Shown piece after piece: positions 3 through 37,549 of a stretch of DNA of 64,000 nt. The position numbers were made by a program, and so were the translations under genes. The notes beneath the pieces are model-generated. The model was not told where the DNA came from and ran no database searches. It saw only the letters and a list, made by a program, of their open reading frames with translations. Origin of the DNA: Gemmata sp. (lineage in GTDB: Bacteria > Planctomycetota > Planctomycetia > Gemmatales > Gemmataceae); NCBI GenBank assembly GCA_025055115.1, contig JANWYJ010000021.1, positions 62,001 to 126,000 on the forward strand. Reading direction: 5' to 3'. Numbering within the stretch: the stretch's first letter is position 1; each line of letters opens with the position of its first letter.

Positions 3-437
3 GTCCGCCGGCAGGTCCAAACCCCGATTATGCTCGACGAATCGCTCTGTGGCCGTATCGACGCGGAGCGGGCCGTGCAAGGGGGGTGGTGCGATCTGTT
101 CAATATCCGGCTTTCCAAATGCGGCGGCTTCATTCCGAGTTTACGCTTGGCCCAATTCGCCCAACGACATCATCTGGGCTATCAGTTGGGCTGCCAAGTG
201 GGCGAAACCGCGATTCTTTCAGCAGCCGGGCGCCATTTTGCCACCAGTGTCACGGGAATACGCTATCGGGAAGGTAGCTACGACCGGCATTTGGTGTGGG
301 AACCCCTTTCGGTCGAAGACCTGACGTTCGGGCGCGGGGGGCGCGCCCGCGCCCTCGTCGGCAGCGGACTGGGGTTCACCCTCGACCCAGCCCGGCTCGA
401 CTGGCTGACAGTCCGCAAAGAAACCCTTCTGGAATGA
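3..437 (+). CDS. Enolase-superfamily enzyme (mandelate racemase/muconate lactonizing type), C-terminal part
   Basis: The reading frame is open from the left edge, so only the C-terminal ~144 residues are present. The stretch PIMLDESL carries the metal-binding Glu/Asp region of the enolase-superfamily barrel, and FNIRLSKCGG resembles the next barrel strand of dipeptide epimerases and o-succinylbenzoate synthases. Later residues (GCQVGETAILSAAGRHFA) fit the conserved C-terminal barrel segment of that group. The superfamily abstracts a proton alpha to a carboxylate. The substrate cannot be told from this fragment, but dipeptide epimerase or o-succinylbenzoate synthase are the likeliest. The stop codon lies inside a short direct repeat, described separately. 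Confidence 0.75.
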   Translation, partial: VRRQVQTPIMLDESLCGRIDAERAVQGGWCDLFNIRLSKCGGFIPSLRLAQFAQRHHLGYQLGCQVGETAILSAAGRHFATSVTGIRYREGSYDRHLVWEPLSVEDLTFGRGGRARALVGSGLGFTLDPARLDWLTVRKETLLE

Positions 438-33490: not shown

Positions 33491-34567
33491 ATGACCGTTT
33501 TTCGGTCGGCCCGGTGGGCCGCCTCGTGGACCCTGGTGGTGACGCTGGTTGCGGCTGTGGCCCTGGCCTCGGACCCGGCCCCGGAACCGAGTTTGAAGTG
33601 GGACCCCGACCGGACGACGCCTCCGGAGGACCTAGCCGAGCTGAAGGCCCTCCAGGCGGTGGTGAAAAGTGTGGTCGAAAAATGCACACCGGCGACGGTG
33701 GCTGTGCTCAATGGCCCCAGTGCCGGCAGCGGGGTGATTGTGAGCGAAGATGGTTTGGTTCTCACCGCGGCCCACGTCATCCGCGACTATTCCGCACCCA
33801 AAAAAGGAGCGTTAGAAGGTCGGGCGTTACCATACACCAGTGGCAAAATCCTCAAAGTCATGCTCCCGGATGGCAAGCGGGTCGATGCGAAAACTCTCGG
33901 TATTAATGAGGGCATGGACAGCGGCATGGTGCAGATTGTGGAAAAAGGTCCACTCGATGGGAAATGGCCGTTTGCCCCATTAGCGAAAACCAGCAATCTG
34001 CCCAAAGGGCAGTGGGTGGTGGCGTTGGGGCACCCCAGCGGGCCGAAAGTCGGCCGTGATCCGGTGGCCCGGTTGGGACGCATTCTCGGCAGTACCAAAA
34101 GCGCCCTTCGTACTGATTGCACCCTGGTGGGCGGCGATTCGGGAGGGCCGCTGTTTGACCTCCGTGGTCATGTCATTGGGATTCACAGCCGCATCGGCCT
34201 GCCGATCAATCAAAACCTGCATGTGCCGATTGACCAATTCCGCAAAGATTGGGATGCCTTGGTCGCCGGTGAATGGGTCGATAAACCGGCCTCAGCCAAA
34301 ACCACCTTGGCTTACTTCGGTGTCGCCTTCCCACCGGATGATGAGGACGATGCCTGGTTGGTGGAAGTGGAAGAAGACGGACCGGCAGGCAAGGCGGGTC
34401 TCAAACCTGGCGATACCATCACGAAGTTCAACGATACGGTCATCAAAAGTGTCAAGCAGTTTCGCAAACAGATGGAAACGGCTAAACCCGGCGATCGGGT
34501 GAATATCACCGCCCGGCGCGGAACCGATATCCTCAAATTCACCGTCACACTGGGCAAGCGTACCTGA
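33491..34567 (+). CDS. Secreted trypsin-like serine protease with PDZ domain (HtrA/S1C type)
   Basis: The 358-residue protein has a signal peptide or N-terminal anchor (residues 8-26), a chymotrypsin-fold domain and one C-terminal PDZ domain (~265-355). The catalytic triad is visible: His95 in LTAAHV, Asp143 in GMDSGMVQI (replacing the usual DLAVL form) and Ser217 in GGDSGGPL. Cys65 and Cys210 might form a disulphide. The PDZ part contains GPAGKAGLKPGDTITKFNDTVI. It probably degrades misfolded envelope proteins. GGAG lies 8 nt before the ATG at 33491. It is followed on the same strand by a degenerate relative. Confidence 0.9.
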   Translation: MTVFRSARWAASWTLVVTLVAAVALASDPAPEPSLKWDPDRTTPPEDLAELKALQAVVKSVVEKCTPATVAVLNGPSAGSGVIVSEDGLVLTAAHVIRDYSAPKKGALEGRALPYTSGKILKVMLPDGKRVDAKTLGINEGMDSGMVQIVEKGPLDGKWPFAPLAKTSNLPKGQWVVALGHPSGPKVGRDPVARLGRILGSTKSALRTDCTLVGGDSGGPLFDLRGHVIGIHSRIGLPINQNLHVPIDQFRKDWDALVAGEWVDKPASAKTTLAYFGVAFPPDDEDDAWLVEVEEDGPAGKAGLKPGDTITKFNDTVIKSVKQFRKQMETAKPGDRVNITARRGTDILKFTVTLGKRT

Positions 34568-34618
34568 ATAGCCCCGCCGGGCGATTTTGGGCAACCGGCC
34601 CGATGGCGATCGCGAATA

Positions 34619-34678
34619 CAATATCAGATGAGAGAGAGTTTCGGTGAATCGTCGACTTGATGGAAACTCTCTGATATT
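34619..34678. other. Imperfect inverted repeat between the two HtrA genes
   Basis: GAAACTCTCTGATATT (34663-34678) is complementary to AATATCAG plus AGAGTTTC on the left, interrupted by about 5 extra bases. The loop is about 19 nt and five A follow. It could be a weak terminator or an RNA structure controlling the second gene. Confidence 0.45.
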
Positions 34679-34787
34679 AAAAACGCCCCGCCAGGGAATC
34701 CGAGAACGAAGGCCTCCCCCCACGAGAACTCTTGCTCGTGTTATCTCAAGAAGGAGCCAAATCCGAATCCTGCTGGAGTTTCGACCG

Positions 34788-35846
34788 ATGCTTGCACGTC
34801 TGCTCGCCGCCCTTATTGCGATCGTCCTATCCGCCACACCGGTGTTGGCGCAGTTGGGTAAGGACCCGAAAATCCTGGCCCCGTTCAAACCGGTCGTCGC
34901 CCATGTCACCGAATCGACGGTGCGTGTCAAATGCAACGATAAAGACACGATTCTTGGCACCATTGTTGATGCCGATGGCTATATCCTCACCAAATTGAGC
35001 GAACTCAAAGGTACCATCCATGTGCGCTTCTCCGACGGCACGGAATTCGAAGCCACGACCGTGGCCGAGCATAAAGACACCGACTTAGCTCTCTTGAAAG
35101 TCGATGTCAAAGGACTCAAACCGGTGCGGTTTGCCGATACGAAGAAACTCGAACGCGGAACCTGGGTAGCGGCCTCCGGACCCAATAGTGATCCCATCTC
35201 CGTGGGCATCATCAGTGTCATGACCCGCAAGCTGACCGGGCCAGATACGCTCATCACCAACCCCAACCGCGGCTACATGGGGGTCATGCCCGAAGATGCC
35301 AAAGACGCCGACGGCAACCCCATCGGCGCTAAGATCACCGAGGTCGTTCCCGGCGGGGCCGCGGAAAAAGCAGGGCTGAAAGCCGGGGATATCGTCATCG
35401 AAATGAACGGCAAGAAAATCGACAGCCAAACCGCTATGCGGGCGTTCCTGGATACCGTGCGCGGTGGCGATGAAATCACCCTCAAGATCAAACGCCAAGA
35501 CCAGATCAAAGAACTCAAGATGAAATTGGGGAGCGCCCCCAAGGACCGCGGCGACATCCAAAATGCTATGGGTAGCACCCTCTCCAACCGCCGCACGGGA
35601 TTCCCCCTGGTGTTGCAAACGGATATGGTCGTTGACGCCAAAGATTGTGGTGGCCCCGTCGTCGATCTGGAGGGCAACGTCTTGGGAATCAACATTGCCC
35701 GGGCCGGTCGGGTGGAAACATGGGTCCTGCCCAGTGAAGTGATTCGCCCGCTGTTGCAAGAATTCAAAGCGGGCAAGCATGCCACCAGCAATGCCAAGAC
35801 CGATCTTCCTCCCTTGCCCGAAGCGCCGCCACCGCATCGCAAATAA
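34788..35846 (+). CDS. Catalytically degenerate HtrA homologue with inserted PDZ domain
   Basis: The 352-residue protein has a signal peptide (MLARLLAALIAIVLSATPVLA). The first half matches the HtrA protease barrel, but GYILTNNHV is replaced by GYILTKLSE, so the catalytic His position is Ser71. The Asp is kept (DTDLALLKVD, Asp99). A PDZ domain (~160-248; GGAAEKAGLKAGDIVIEMNGKKI) lies inside the fold, before the strand LVLQTDMVVDAKDCGGPVVDLEGNVLGIN. There the nucleophile Ser of GNSGGP is Cys287. It is therefore unlikely to be a serine protease; peptide binding or a regulatory partner role is inferred. GGAG lies 9 nt before the ATG. The C-terminal tail is Pro-rich. Confidence 0.85.
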   Translation: MLARLLAALIAIVLSATPVLAQLGKDPKILAPFKPVVAHVTESTVRVKCNDKDTILGTIVDADGYILTKLSELKGTIHVRFSDGTEFEATTVAEHKDTDLALLKVDVKGLKPVRFADTKKLERGTWVAASGPNSDPISVGIISVMTRKLTGPDTLITNPNRGYMGVMPEDAKDADGNPIGAKITEVVPGGAAEKAGLKAGDIVIEMNGKKIDSQTAMRAFLDTVRGGDEITLKIKRQDQIKELKMKLGSAPKDRGDIQNAMGSTLSNRRTGFPLVLQTDMVVDAKDCGGPVVDLEGNVLGINIARAGRVETWVLPSEVIRPLLQEFKAGKHATSNAKTDLPPLPEAPPPHRK

Positions 35847-35860
35847 TCCGCCTCCGCGCA

Positions 35861-35968
35861 GATAGGCTCCGTGTTGTGCCGTAGCTGCCAGGCCACATCC
35901 TTTGGTTGAGGAGAAGATTGATCGGCACGGAGGATAGCCTCCGTGTTGTGCCGTAGCCGCTAGGCTAC
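35861..35968. repeat. 36-bp direct repeat, 36-bp spacer (period 72)
   Basis: Copies at 35861-35896 and 35933-35968, 32 of 36 identical, sharing CTCCGTGTTGTGCCGTAG. The first begins 15 bp after the stop of the degenerate HtrA gene. Confidence 0.9.
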
Positions 35969-36006
35969 GGCCAAGCTTGCCAGCCGGGGGATTCCTCCGC
36001 CATCCG

Positions 36007-36031
36007 GCTCTGTCCAGTATCTGGACAGAGC
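36007..36031. other. Perfect 11-bp inverted repeat (hairpin)
   Basis: GCTCTGTCCAG, loop TAT, CTGGACAGAGC. No T-run follows on either strand, so it is not a typical terminator. Confidence 0.8.
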
Positions 36032-36057
36032 CTCACCTCGTTGTCGGATACGAAGGT

Positions 36058-36388
36058 CAGATTCTCGCAAGTAGCGGCTTTTTCCAGCGCGCAATGCTGC
36101 GCAGTGTCGCGGATGGCAGATCAGACAGAGCCATTCGCTACGCCAAACCATCGCTCTATCATCTACAGCGCTATGTGCAGCGCTGCGCAGTGTCGCGGAT
36201 GGCAGATCAGAGAGCAGATTCTCGGAAATAGTGGCTTTTTCCAGCGACACCGACATGCCGGGGCGACTGAGAGGATGATGTCCCTTCCGCCGTCGCGACT
36301 GCTCCCCTGGATGTCCCTTTCGCCGTCGCGACTGCTCCCTGGGTGGATGCGGCGGTCAGATTCTCGGAAGTCGTGGCTTTTTCTAGCT
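36058..36388. repeat. Interspersed 32-bp and 29-bp repeats
   Basis: The 32-bp family, with CAGATTCTCG and GGCTTTTTC, is at 36058-36089, 36215-36246 and 36357-36388. A second family with GCAGTGTCGCGGATGGCAGA is at 36101-36120 and 36188-36207. A 33-bp tandem containing GATGTCCCTT and GCCGTCGCGACTGCTCC is at 36277-36309 and 36310-36342. Confidence 0.9.
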
Positions 36389-36487
36389 CGACAGAGTCTT
36401 GCTCCCTTGTTCTCCCTTGTTGGATGCGGCGGAGGAAGCAACGGAAAGTTCCCACCCGCCGCCCCGCTTCCCGACAGAGGCACGATG

Positions 36488-37549
36488 TTACTGATGGCGG
36501 GATTGTCGAATGCCTGGCCTGGATGCCGTTTCGGCTGGTCCGGATGCCGTTTCTGAGCAACAGGCGGTCTTCGAGCCCCATTTTTCGAGCCATTTCCGCA
36601 AATCTCCCGGTAGCGGCATCGTCCAATGGAGATGTTCACCCGTCACCGGATGTTCAAAACCCAATTCTGTCGCATGCAACGCCAGTCGCGGGGCTTCGCT
36701 GAGATCAGCAACGACCGCGCCGCTGAGGGCTTTCCGATAGACCCGATCGCCACAGACCGGGTGGCCAGCTTCCGCTAGATGAATGCGAATTTGATGTGTG
36801 CGACCCGTTTCCAGCCGGCAGGACACGAGGGTATACCCGGGGAGGTACTCCTCCCCGGCCACATGGGTGATGGCCTCCTTGCCCACATTGGGTAAGCGTG
36901 TGCTGCCGCGCCGCCCGTCGCCGCGATCACGCACCAGGAAGGAGCGAATCGTTTGGTTGGTGATCCGACCGGGAACAACCGCCAGGTAGCGTCGGACCAC
37001 GGTGTGTTTGCGGAACTGTCGGCCCAATTCGCGTTCGGCCAGGGGGGAACGAGCGAAAACGACCAGCCCACTGGTTTCTTTGTCCAAGCGATGAACGATC
37101 CGCAGCCGGGGCAGTTCTCGCGCGGGTCGCTGGAGTCGATGAGCAATGGCCCATTGCGTGAGGTCTTCCAGGGTTGGGTCGAGTTGGCGGCGCTTCTCGG
37201 ACCATTCCAGCTCCGCCGGATGGCGCACGGTATTGACCCCAGCCGGTTTCTCCACCACCACCACATGCTCATCGAGATAGCGAATCACCAATCGCTGGGG
37301 GTGGGCTACGCGTGGCAGGGGTTTGGGATGGGCCAGCAATGTGACCAGTTCATTGTCCTTCAGGCGGCGGGCCTCATCGGAACAAATAGCATCGCCCACC
37401 TGGACCCGCCGGGCTTTGATCAATTTCCGCACATCGGACCACGTCGCGTGGCCCAATCGCGAGCGCAGAACTTTCGCGAGGGTGAATCCGGCTTCCTGCG
37501 GTGTGACGGTGAAGGGAGCAAGTGTGAACGTCATGGGGGATCGTCTCAT
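36488..37549 (-). CDS. RluA family pseudouridine synthase
   Basis: The 353-residue protein has an S4 RNA-binding domain (~20-75) followed by the RluA catalytic domain. The signature IVHRLDKETSGLVVFARS has the nucleophile Asp156. RRYLAVVPG, LVSCRLETGRTHQIRIHLAEAGHPVCGD and LALHATELGFEHPVTGEHLHW match the family. It isomerises uridine to pseudouridine in 23S rRNA or tRNA; which site (RluD-, RluC- or other-like) cannot be assigned. The C-terminal tail carries a duplicated GSETAS/PAETAS-type stretch made by a 21-bp in-frame repeat (36516-36557). An alternative start is the ATG at 37534. Confidence 0.9.
   Translation of the reverse strand: MRRSPMTFTLAPFTVTPQEAGFTLAKVLRSRLGHATWSDVRKLIKARRVQVGDAICSDEARRLKDNELVTLLAHPKPLPRVAHPQRLVIRYLDEHVVVVEKPAGVNTVRHPAELEWSEKRRQLDPTLEDLTQWAIAHRLQRPARELPRLRIVHRLDKETSGLVVFARSPLAERELGRQFRKHTVVRRYLAVVPGRITNQTIRSFLVRDRGDGRRGSTRLPNVGKEAITHVAGEEYLPGYTLVSCRLETGRTHQIRIHLAEAGHPVCGDRVYRKALSGAVVADLSEAPRLALHATELGFEHPVTGEHLHWTMPLPGDLRKWLEKWGSKTACCSETASGPAETASRPGIRQSRHQ

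Follow-up and report, generated by a model that had tools for sequence, protein, structure and literature searches.

Locus and gene pair

The window, a stretch of 64,000 nucleotides from Gemmata sp. (contig JANWYJ010000021.1), carries two neighboring genes on its forward strand. The upstream gene encodes an active HtrA-type protease. The downstream gene encodes a protein with the HtrA parts and without the catalytic triad, here called the pseudo-protease. A sequence-only reading had placed the pair at 33491-35846, and its coordinates are right: the active gene is at 33491-34567 and the pseudo-protease gene at 34788-35846, both on the plus strand. The features are as follows, with residues numbered within each protein.

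33491..34567, plus strand: active HtrA-type protease gene (358 aa); triad H95-D143-S217, PDZ domain at about 276-354, shortened L3 segment G196-D209, LD segment G180-L195
34568..34787, plus strand: intergenic stretch of 220 bp between the active gene and the pseudo-protease gene
34788..35846, plus strand: pseudo-protease gene (352 aa); S71-D99-C287 at the triad positions
34788..34853, plus strand: hydrophobic N-terminal segment of the pseudo-protease, residues 1-22, with a mostly conserved AQ at its end
34869..35228, plus strand: first half of the inactive trypsin fold, residues 28-147, ending in the invariant L3 arginine R147
35262..35525, plus strand: inserted PDZ domain, residues 159-246, with the carboxylate loop GYMGV (162-166)
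35547..35606, plus strand: conserved connector RGDIQNAMGSTLSNRRTGFP, residues 254-273, from the PDZ domain to the second fold half
35607..35783, plus strand: second half of the inactive trypsin fold, residues 274-332, with C287-GGP and the INIARAGR stretch

Both proteins start with hydrophobic N-termini and by this sign are presumably exported. Residues 1-22 of the pseudo-protease would be the export signal, probably cleaved. In the intergenic stretch (34568..34787), no terminator-like site was found on the plus strand, and a repeat search between the two genes yielded no inverted repeat of at least 14 nt. RNA folding of window positions 34620-34750 pairs a long intergenic stem (AATATCAGA...TCTGATATT), and a short hairpin (CACGAG...CTCGTG) precedes the pseudo-protease gene. 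The intergenic fold is weakly better than shuffled sequences (z -1.7; 10 of 200 shuffles as good). Stem and hairpin are partly kept in the related locus L014. Clustered short direct repeats of 19-46 nt, in up to three copies, lie 3' of the pseudo-protease gene at positions 35861-36553.

Loss of the catalytic triad

The positions of His, Asp and Ser in the pseudo-protease are occupied by Ser71, Asp99 and Cys287. The numbered sequence and the columns of the family alignment agree on this, and the residues are where the sequence-only reading had put them. Among 83 distinct aligned copies, the window protein counted once, the His site holds S in 74, N in 4, H in 3, and D and T in one each. The Asp site is Asp in all 83. 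The Ser site is C in 80, Q in one, I in one, and a gap in one frame-broken copy. Extended to 123 copies including distant relatives, the same site reads C 112, Q 5, I 3, V 2 and M 1. The Ser-site motif missed 19 of 214 ORFs before duplicate removal; the 14 distinct ones, read separately, gave C in 9, T in one (L204), M in one (L195), F in one (L223) and two unreadable sites (L026 broken, L217 not covered). Serine was absent from the nucleophile site of every copy examined. The oxyanion glycine position (285) is Gly in just 1 of 81 rows, while K69, R305, R308 and G300 are invariant in the 81.

Three copies (L057, L077, L082) have His at the His site, which formally completes a His-Asp-Cys triad. 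In L077, one of the extra copies without a partner, the residue two places before the Cys is moreover Gly. Judged from these residues, the three are possibly re-activated cysteine proteases. In the distant relatives L211, L212, L214 and L225 the Cys site is Gln or Val.

A trypsin fold with an inserted PDZ domain

Only trypsin and PDZ families exceed the curated Pfam cut-offs within the 352 residues of the pseudo-protease. The PDZ match covers 159-235, and Trypsin_2 matches twice, with its best stretch at 57-136. Among solved structures, HtrA chains in the PDB align with 57-150 and, separately, with 275-326. The sequence-only reading had located the PDZ domain between strands of the protease fold, and the Pfam match together with the HtrA domains that align from both sides agrees with it. 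An AlphaFold2 model built from 81 sequences reached a pLDDT of 92.3 and a pTM of 0.83. Over residues 31..332 the model aligns with AlgW (7co5_B) at Z 24.4 and rmsd 2.1 A (184 residues, 25% identity). It also aligns with isolated protease domains, namely that of HtrA1 (3tjn_B; 172 residues of a target of 197, model 31..328) and that of DegQ (3sti_B; 178 residues of a target of 184, model 28..338). Because the AlgW, HtrA1 and DegQ protease domains align across the insertion, both of its sides together are predicted to build one complete trypsin fold. The maintained fold and the lost triad of the sequence-only reading are supported by conservation.

In the model the trypsin fold is complete and the fold alignment leaves the PDZ as a separate domain; the arrangement, with the PDZ inside the protease fold in sequence, is predicted to be a loop insertion. 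A PDZ domain placed outside the barrel, which the sequence-only reading had taken as refuting, would not speak against this, because the domain is inside the fold in sequence. Whole-chain superposition on solved HtrAs was poor, with a TM by query length of 0.32 at best among the chains listed, and none of these superposed well on fold and PDZ together. The match to NCBIfam TIGR02037 comes in three pieces with 130.5 bits, below the curated cut-off of 416.2. The carboxylate loop of the PDZ domain follows G-[YF]-[LM]-G-[VI] in 59 of 81 copies.

The active partner

The upstream protein has the standard HtrA order, a trypsin fold followed by a PDZ domain (PDZ_2 at 276-354 in Pfam, after the protease domain). 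Its triad is His-Asp-Ser in 79 of 81 aligned rows, the window protein counted twice; the two exceptions (L015, L026) are cut or mis-framed ORFs. The AlphaFold2 model (pLDDT 90.7, pTM 0.70) aligns with trypsin-plus-PDZ HtrAs across protease and PDZ domain, which follow each other in the same order; with both included, rmsd values are about 7-11. The alignment with 5t69 covers 52..358 with 262 residues at rmsd 7.1. These high values may be read as a different inter-domain angle in the model. The score against TIGR02037 is 126.5 bits, also below the cut-off of 416.2. Of the marks of HtrA membership, a full-length L3 sensor loop with its arginine is lacking. In a genus-level group, g28 (L063, L070, L072, L080, L084, L089), the ORF of the active partner is about 640 aa long, and similarity to the window's protein ends where the PDZ would start.

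Asymmetric L3 and LD loops

The PDZ domain of the pseudo-protease is inserted after GIISVMTR and before ...LQTD, which is the HtrA loop L3. This insertion site and the shortened L3 of the active partner go beyond the sequence-only reading. In the alignment, R147 of the pseudo-protease pairs with residue 187 of a DegP chain; we take it to be the counterpart of DegS Arg178. The L3 arginine is present in 81 of 81 pseudo-proteases and in 27 of 27 parsed canonical planctomycete HtrAs, and at the same offset in 5 of 72 active partners. It is also visible by eye in the three canonical HtrAs that were not parsed. In DegS, the signal is described as running from the PDZ domain to L3, on to the LD' loop of the neighbor and to the active site, and Arg178 of L3 as contacting the neighboring subunit (review, PMC11642142). 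For HtrA2, contact of L3 with LD* of the adjoining monomer is described (PMC6172425).

Segment lengths were measured between the same pairs of landmarks in all three groups. The canonical set comprises 30 planctomycete HtrAs, few and partly near-copies, of which 27 were parsed automatically. Lengths and offsets are approximate, as they come from a regular expression for canonical HtrAs and from alignment columns for the two other groups. The L3 segment measures 22-27 residues in canonical HtrAs and 14 in 61 of 72 active partners (13-22 in the rest). The corresponding G-to-D segment of the pseudo-protease spans 127-150 residues, PDZ included. The LD segment has 12 residues in canonical HtrAs (27/27), 16 in active partners (72/72) and 9 in pseudo-proteases (78/81). 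An arginine directly follows the L3 glycine in 59 of the 72 active partners and, by its position, could replace the missing L3 arginine.

Distribution and constraint

The window genome harbors one full-length copy of the pseudo-protease. The sequence-only reading had suggested a search for the same PDZ insertion in other planctomycetes, and relatives were found widely. In the family, 78 of 95 genomes, the window's included, match at E 1e-30 or better, some as fragments at contig ends, and 17 give no match. At class level 147 of 248 drawn genomes match at 1e-40, some partly. Within the phylum, 68 of 294 drawn genomes match at 1e-20, many of them in the PDZ only or partially. The best 80 of 282 relatives in a contig scan have planctomycete or unassigned titles.

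Compared with its nearest relative, the window gives a dN/dS of 0.037 for the pseudo-protease gene and of 0.032 for its active neighbor. Within the pseudo-protease it is 0.021 in the fold halves and 0.042 in the insert. All four are rough values from one species pair with dS above 1. The pseudo-protease has lost the triad and is strictly kept; by these substitution rates it is under purifying selection. With its occurrence in many genomes and the absence of Ser from the nucleophile site, this shows that it is not a product of local decay. The open frame recurs in L014 (93% identical) and in dozens of relatives, and an assembly or frameshift artefact was rejected on this ground. In one genome of the same genus (L026), the active and the pseudo-protease gene are both broken by frame disruptions, or by sequencing errors.

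Genetic tie between the two genes

Of 126 distinct pseudo-protease copies, 105 have the active gene as their immediate upstream neighbor on the same strand and 10 have it fused in one frame; 11 show neither. One of these 11 (L120) is at a contig edge, and three (L059, L060, L077) are extra copies in one genus. Larger flanks, inspected for 5 of the remaining 7, still revealed no adjacent active gene. Fusions in L030, L036 and L038 were rejected: the active gene is in another frame, outside their long stop-to-stop frames. These loci were counted neither as fused nor as unpaired.

The active gene recurs in 75 of 80 named loci, any other ORF in at most 11 of 80, ORFs overlapping the gene pair being left out of this control. 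A neighbor cluster over 132 loci was taken as shadow frames over the two genes.

Both genes are inherited together. Among chosen genomes, all 12 that carry the pseudo-protease also have a protease of the active-partner type, against 1 of the 20 that lack it. The 32 genomes comprise 12 carriers (6 with separated genes), 17 family non-matches and 3 class non-matches, and for class non-carriers the result covers these 3. Partner-type scores in carriers are 328-453 bits, and the best other HtrA reaches 169 bits. The exception, G005, has a partner-type protease of 465 bits and no pseudo-protease. Its genome is 75% complete, and 287 bases separate the active gene from the end of its contig, in the direction in which a pseudo-protease gene would be expected. 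Six of the 12 carrier genomes have both genes, though not side by side, and in some they are far apart.

In distant relatives the active and the dead part are joined in a single ORF of 561-1146 aa, and several of their insertions hold at least two PDZ domains. In six loci of distant planctomycetes (L211, L212, L214, L216, L217, L225), an active protease, additional PDZ domains and a pseudo-protease share one ORF of about 900-1150 aa; there the insertion of the pseudo-protease holds at least two PDZs. A quick tree was built from the fold halves of 28 of the 81 pseudo-proteases, 25 of the 72 active partners and 3 other HtrAs; it placed pseudo-proteases and active partners each on one side of a branch, with SH-aLRT 99 each. 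Both groups sit on long stems, and their mutual relationship is not settled by this tree.

Because adjacency, gene fusion and co-inheritance coincide, a partnership of the active protease and the pseudo-protease is likely. The sequence-only reading had proposed a peptide-binding or regulatory partner. The partnership gained a genetic tie through conservation, co-occurrence, adjacency and fusions. For peptide binding the one indication is the conserved carboxylate loop, which is consistent with it, and the regulatory role is a proposal.

Proposed working and alternatives

The pair may represent a two-gene HtrA of planctomycetes, with the pseudo-protease as sensor and its partner as catalyst. 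For the complex, the binding of peptides and the direction of regulation taken together, the chances appear about even. The upstream protein would be the catalytic subunit, and the downstream protein a catalytically dead subunit of HtrA fold with its PDZ domain spliced into L3. The inserted PDZ would bind exposed C-terminal peptides. Thereupon L3 of the pseudo-protease, with R147, would reorder the LD loop and the active site of the partner. The active protein, without a full L3 of its own, would receive the signal on LD and cut. Signaling in trans through R147 is proposed tentatively. Likewise tentative is the wider idea that HtrA allostery is split over two obligate subunits, giving a heteromeric protease that only a signal in trans would activate. 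The dead subunit would be the sending half (PDZ fused into L3, arginine), and the active subunit, with long LD, triad and an L3 cut short, the receiving half. As part of the same tentative proposal, the sensor of some distant relatives may have grown to at least two PDZ domains in the same loop. Several findings count against the two-gene proposal. The active protein has its own C-terminal PDZ and might sense by itself through it, the arginine after its L3 glycine could replace the missing one, the genes are far apart in some genomes, and 11 of 126 pseudo-protease copies lack an adjacent partner.

Alternatively, the pseudo-protease could be a separate peptide-binding chaperone or substrate adaptor that delivers C-termini to its active neighbor but does not switch it on. 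Adjacency and co-occurrence suit an adaptor as well as an activator, and the conserved carboxylate loop fits too. An adaptor, however, does not account for the location of the PDZ in L3, for an L3 arginine in all 81 copies or for the short L3 of the partner; it is considered unlikely. Pure scaffolding of the oligomer, as by the dead protease domain of plant Deg7, would suit the active-plus-dead fusions of several planctomycetes, and an involvement in trimerisation is reported for the dead domain in AtDeg7 (PMC3473262). Yet a pure scaffold would need neither the conserved carboxylate loop nor the L3 arginine, and this role is decidedly unlikely.

Two further explanations concern the old active site. 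Its re-use for binding a metal, a redox partner or a ligand, with Cys287, K69, R305 and R308 as candidates, draws on the invariance of K69, R305, R308 and G300 in 81 rows and on metal binding described for the dead HtrA MamO (PMC4794232). Cys287 is lost in 11 of 123 copies, though, and its loss is not tied to that of C210 in the partner. An intermolecular disulphide between C287 of the pseudo-protease and C210 of the active protein was rejected as obligate because the losses are uncoupled: among 123 copies, 5 lost the first only, 14 the second only and 6 both, 88 keep both, and for 10 no partner was read. Re-use of the site is very unlikely on balance. Catalysis by Cys287, as a cysteine protease or another thiol enzyme, would account for a Cys in 112 of 123 copies and in 9 of the 14 missed by the motif, for the invariant Asp and for the His-Asp-Cys arrangement in 3 of 83, with the additional Gly in L077. 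The His is missing in 80 of 83, however, the oxyanion position retains Gly in a single row, and other residues stand in place of the Cys in 11 of 123 copies (Q, I, V or M) and in 3 of those 14 (T, M or F). On the losses of His and of the oxyanion Gly and on the Cys replacements, a catalytic Cys287 was disfavored and is regarded as highly improbable.

Relation to known proteases

The heteromeric reading, with a dead sensor and an active catalyst, can be set beside several known systems. DegS, DegP, DegQ, MucD and AlgW share the trypsin fold and the PDZ family with both proteins of the pair, the standard order and triad with the active partner, and the L3 arginine with the pseudo-protease. They differ from the latter, which lacks the triad and has its PDZ inside L3 and not after the fold. 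The C-terminal processing proteases Prc, CtpA and CtpB have a PDZ-insertion layout on the S41 fold, which is other than trypsin. These are active enzymes of a different protease fold, whereas the pseudo-protease is an inactive trypsin fold. Their PDZ domain is likewise described as inserted within the protease (PMC6686036).

MamE and MamO of magnetotactic bacteria also pair an active with a dead HtrA; in the planctomycete pair the tie is genetic, through adjacency and co-occurrence. MamO is described as activating MamE-dependent proteolysis without catalysis (PMC4794232). It is reported there with a C-terminal TauE-like domain and a Thr at the nucleophile site; the pseudo-protease of the window has neither, and instead an inserted PDZ and the Ser and Cys replacements. 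Plant Deg7 combines active and dead protease domains with PDZs in one protein, as do the fused planctomycete ORFs (PMC3473262). In Deg7 of Chlamydomonas, the order is given as PD-PDZ-PDZ-PDia-PDZ-PDZ, so that the PDZs follow the folds, while the window has separate genes and an inserted PDZ (PMC3473262).

Dead HtrAs beside active ones are thus already known from MamE-MamO and Deg7. The planctomycete pair differs from them in a PDZ placed within the fold, at L3, in loops that are asymmetric between the two proteins, and in its spread among planctomycetes. No account of a PDZ domain inside a trypsin fold turned up in the open-licence literature, a weak indication that none exists. In the well-studied HtrA proteases, every subunit of the homo-oligomer both senses and cuts, and signaling in cis and in trans is therefore hard to separate. 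Should sensing and cutting reside in different proteins, the relay from L3 to LD would become directly testable by mixing mutant subunits. The pair would add a PDZ insertion in a trypsin fold and another pairing of active and dead HtrAs. Planctomycetes have many HtrA-like genes, and one of them would thereby gain a role; a survey of microbial PDZ proteins describes these proteins as expanded in the group (PMC6411480).
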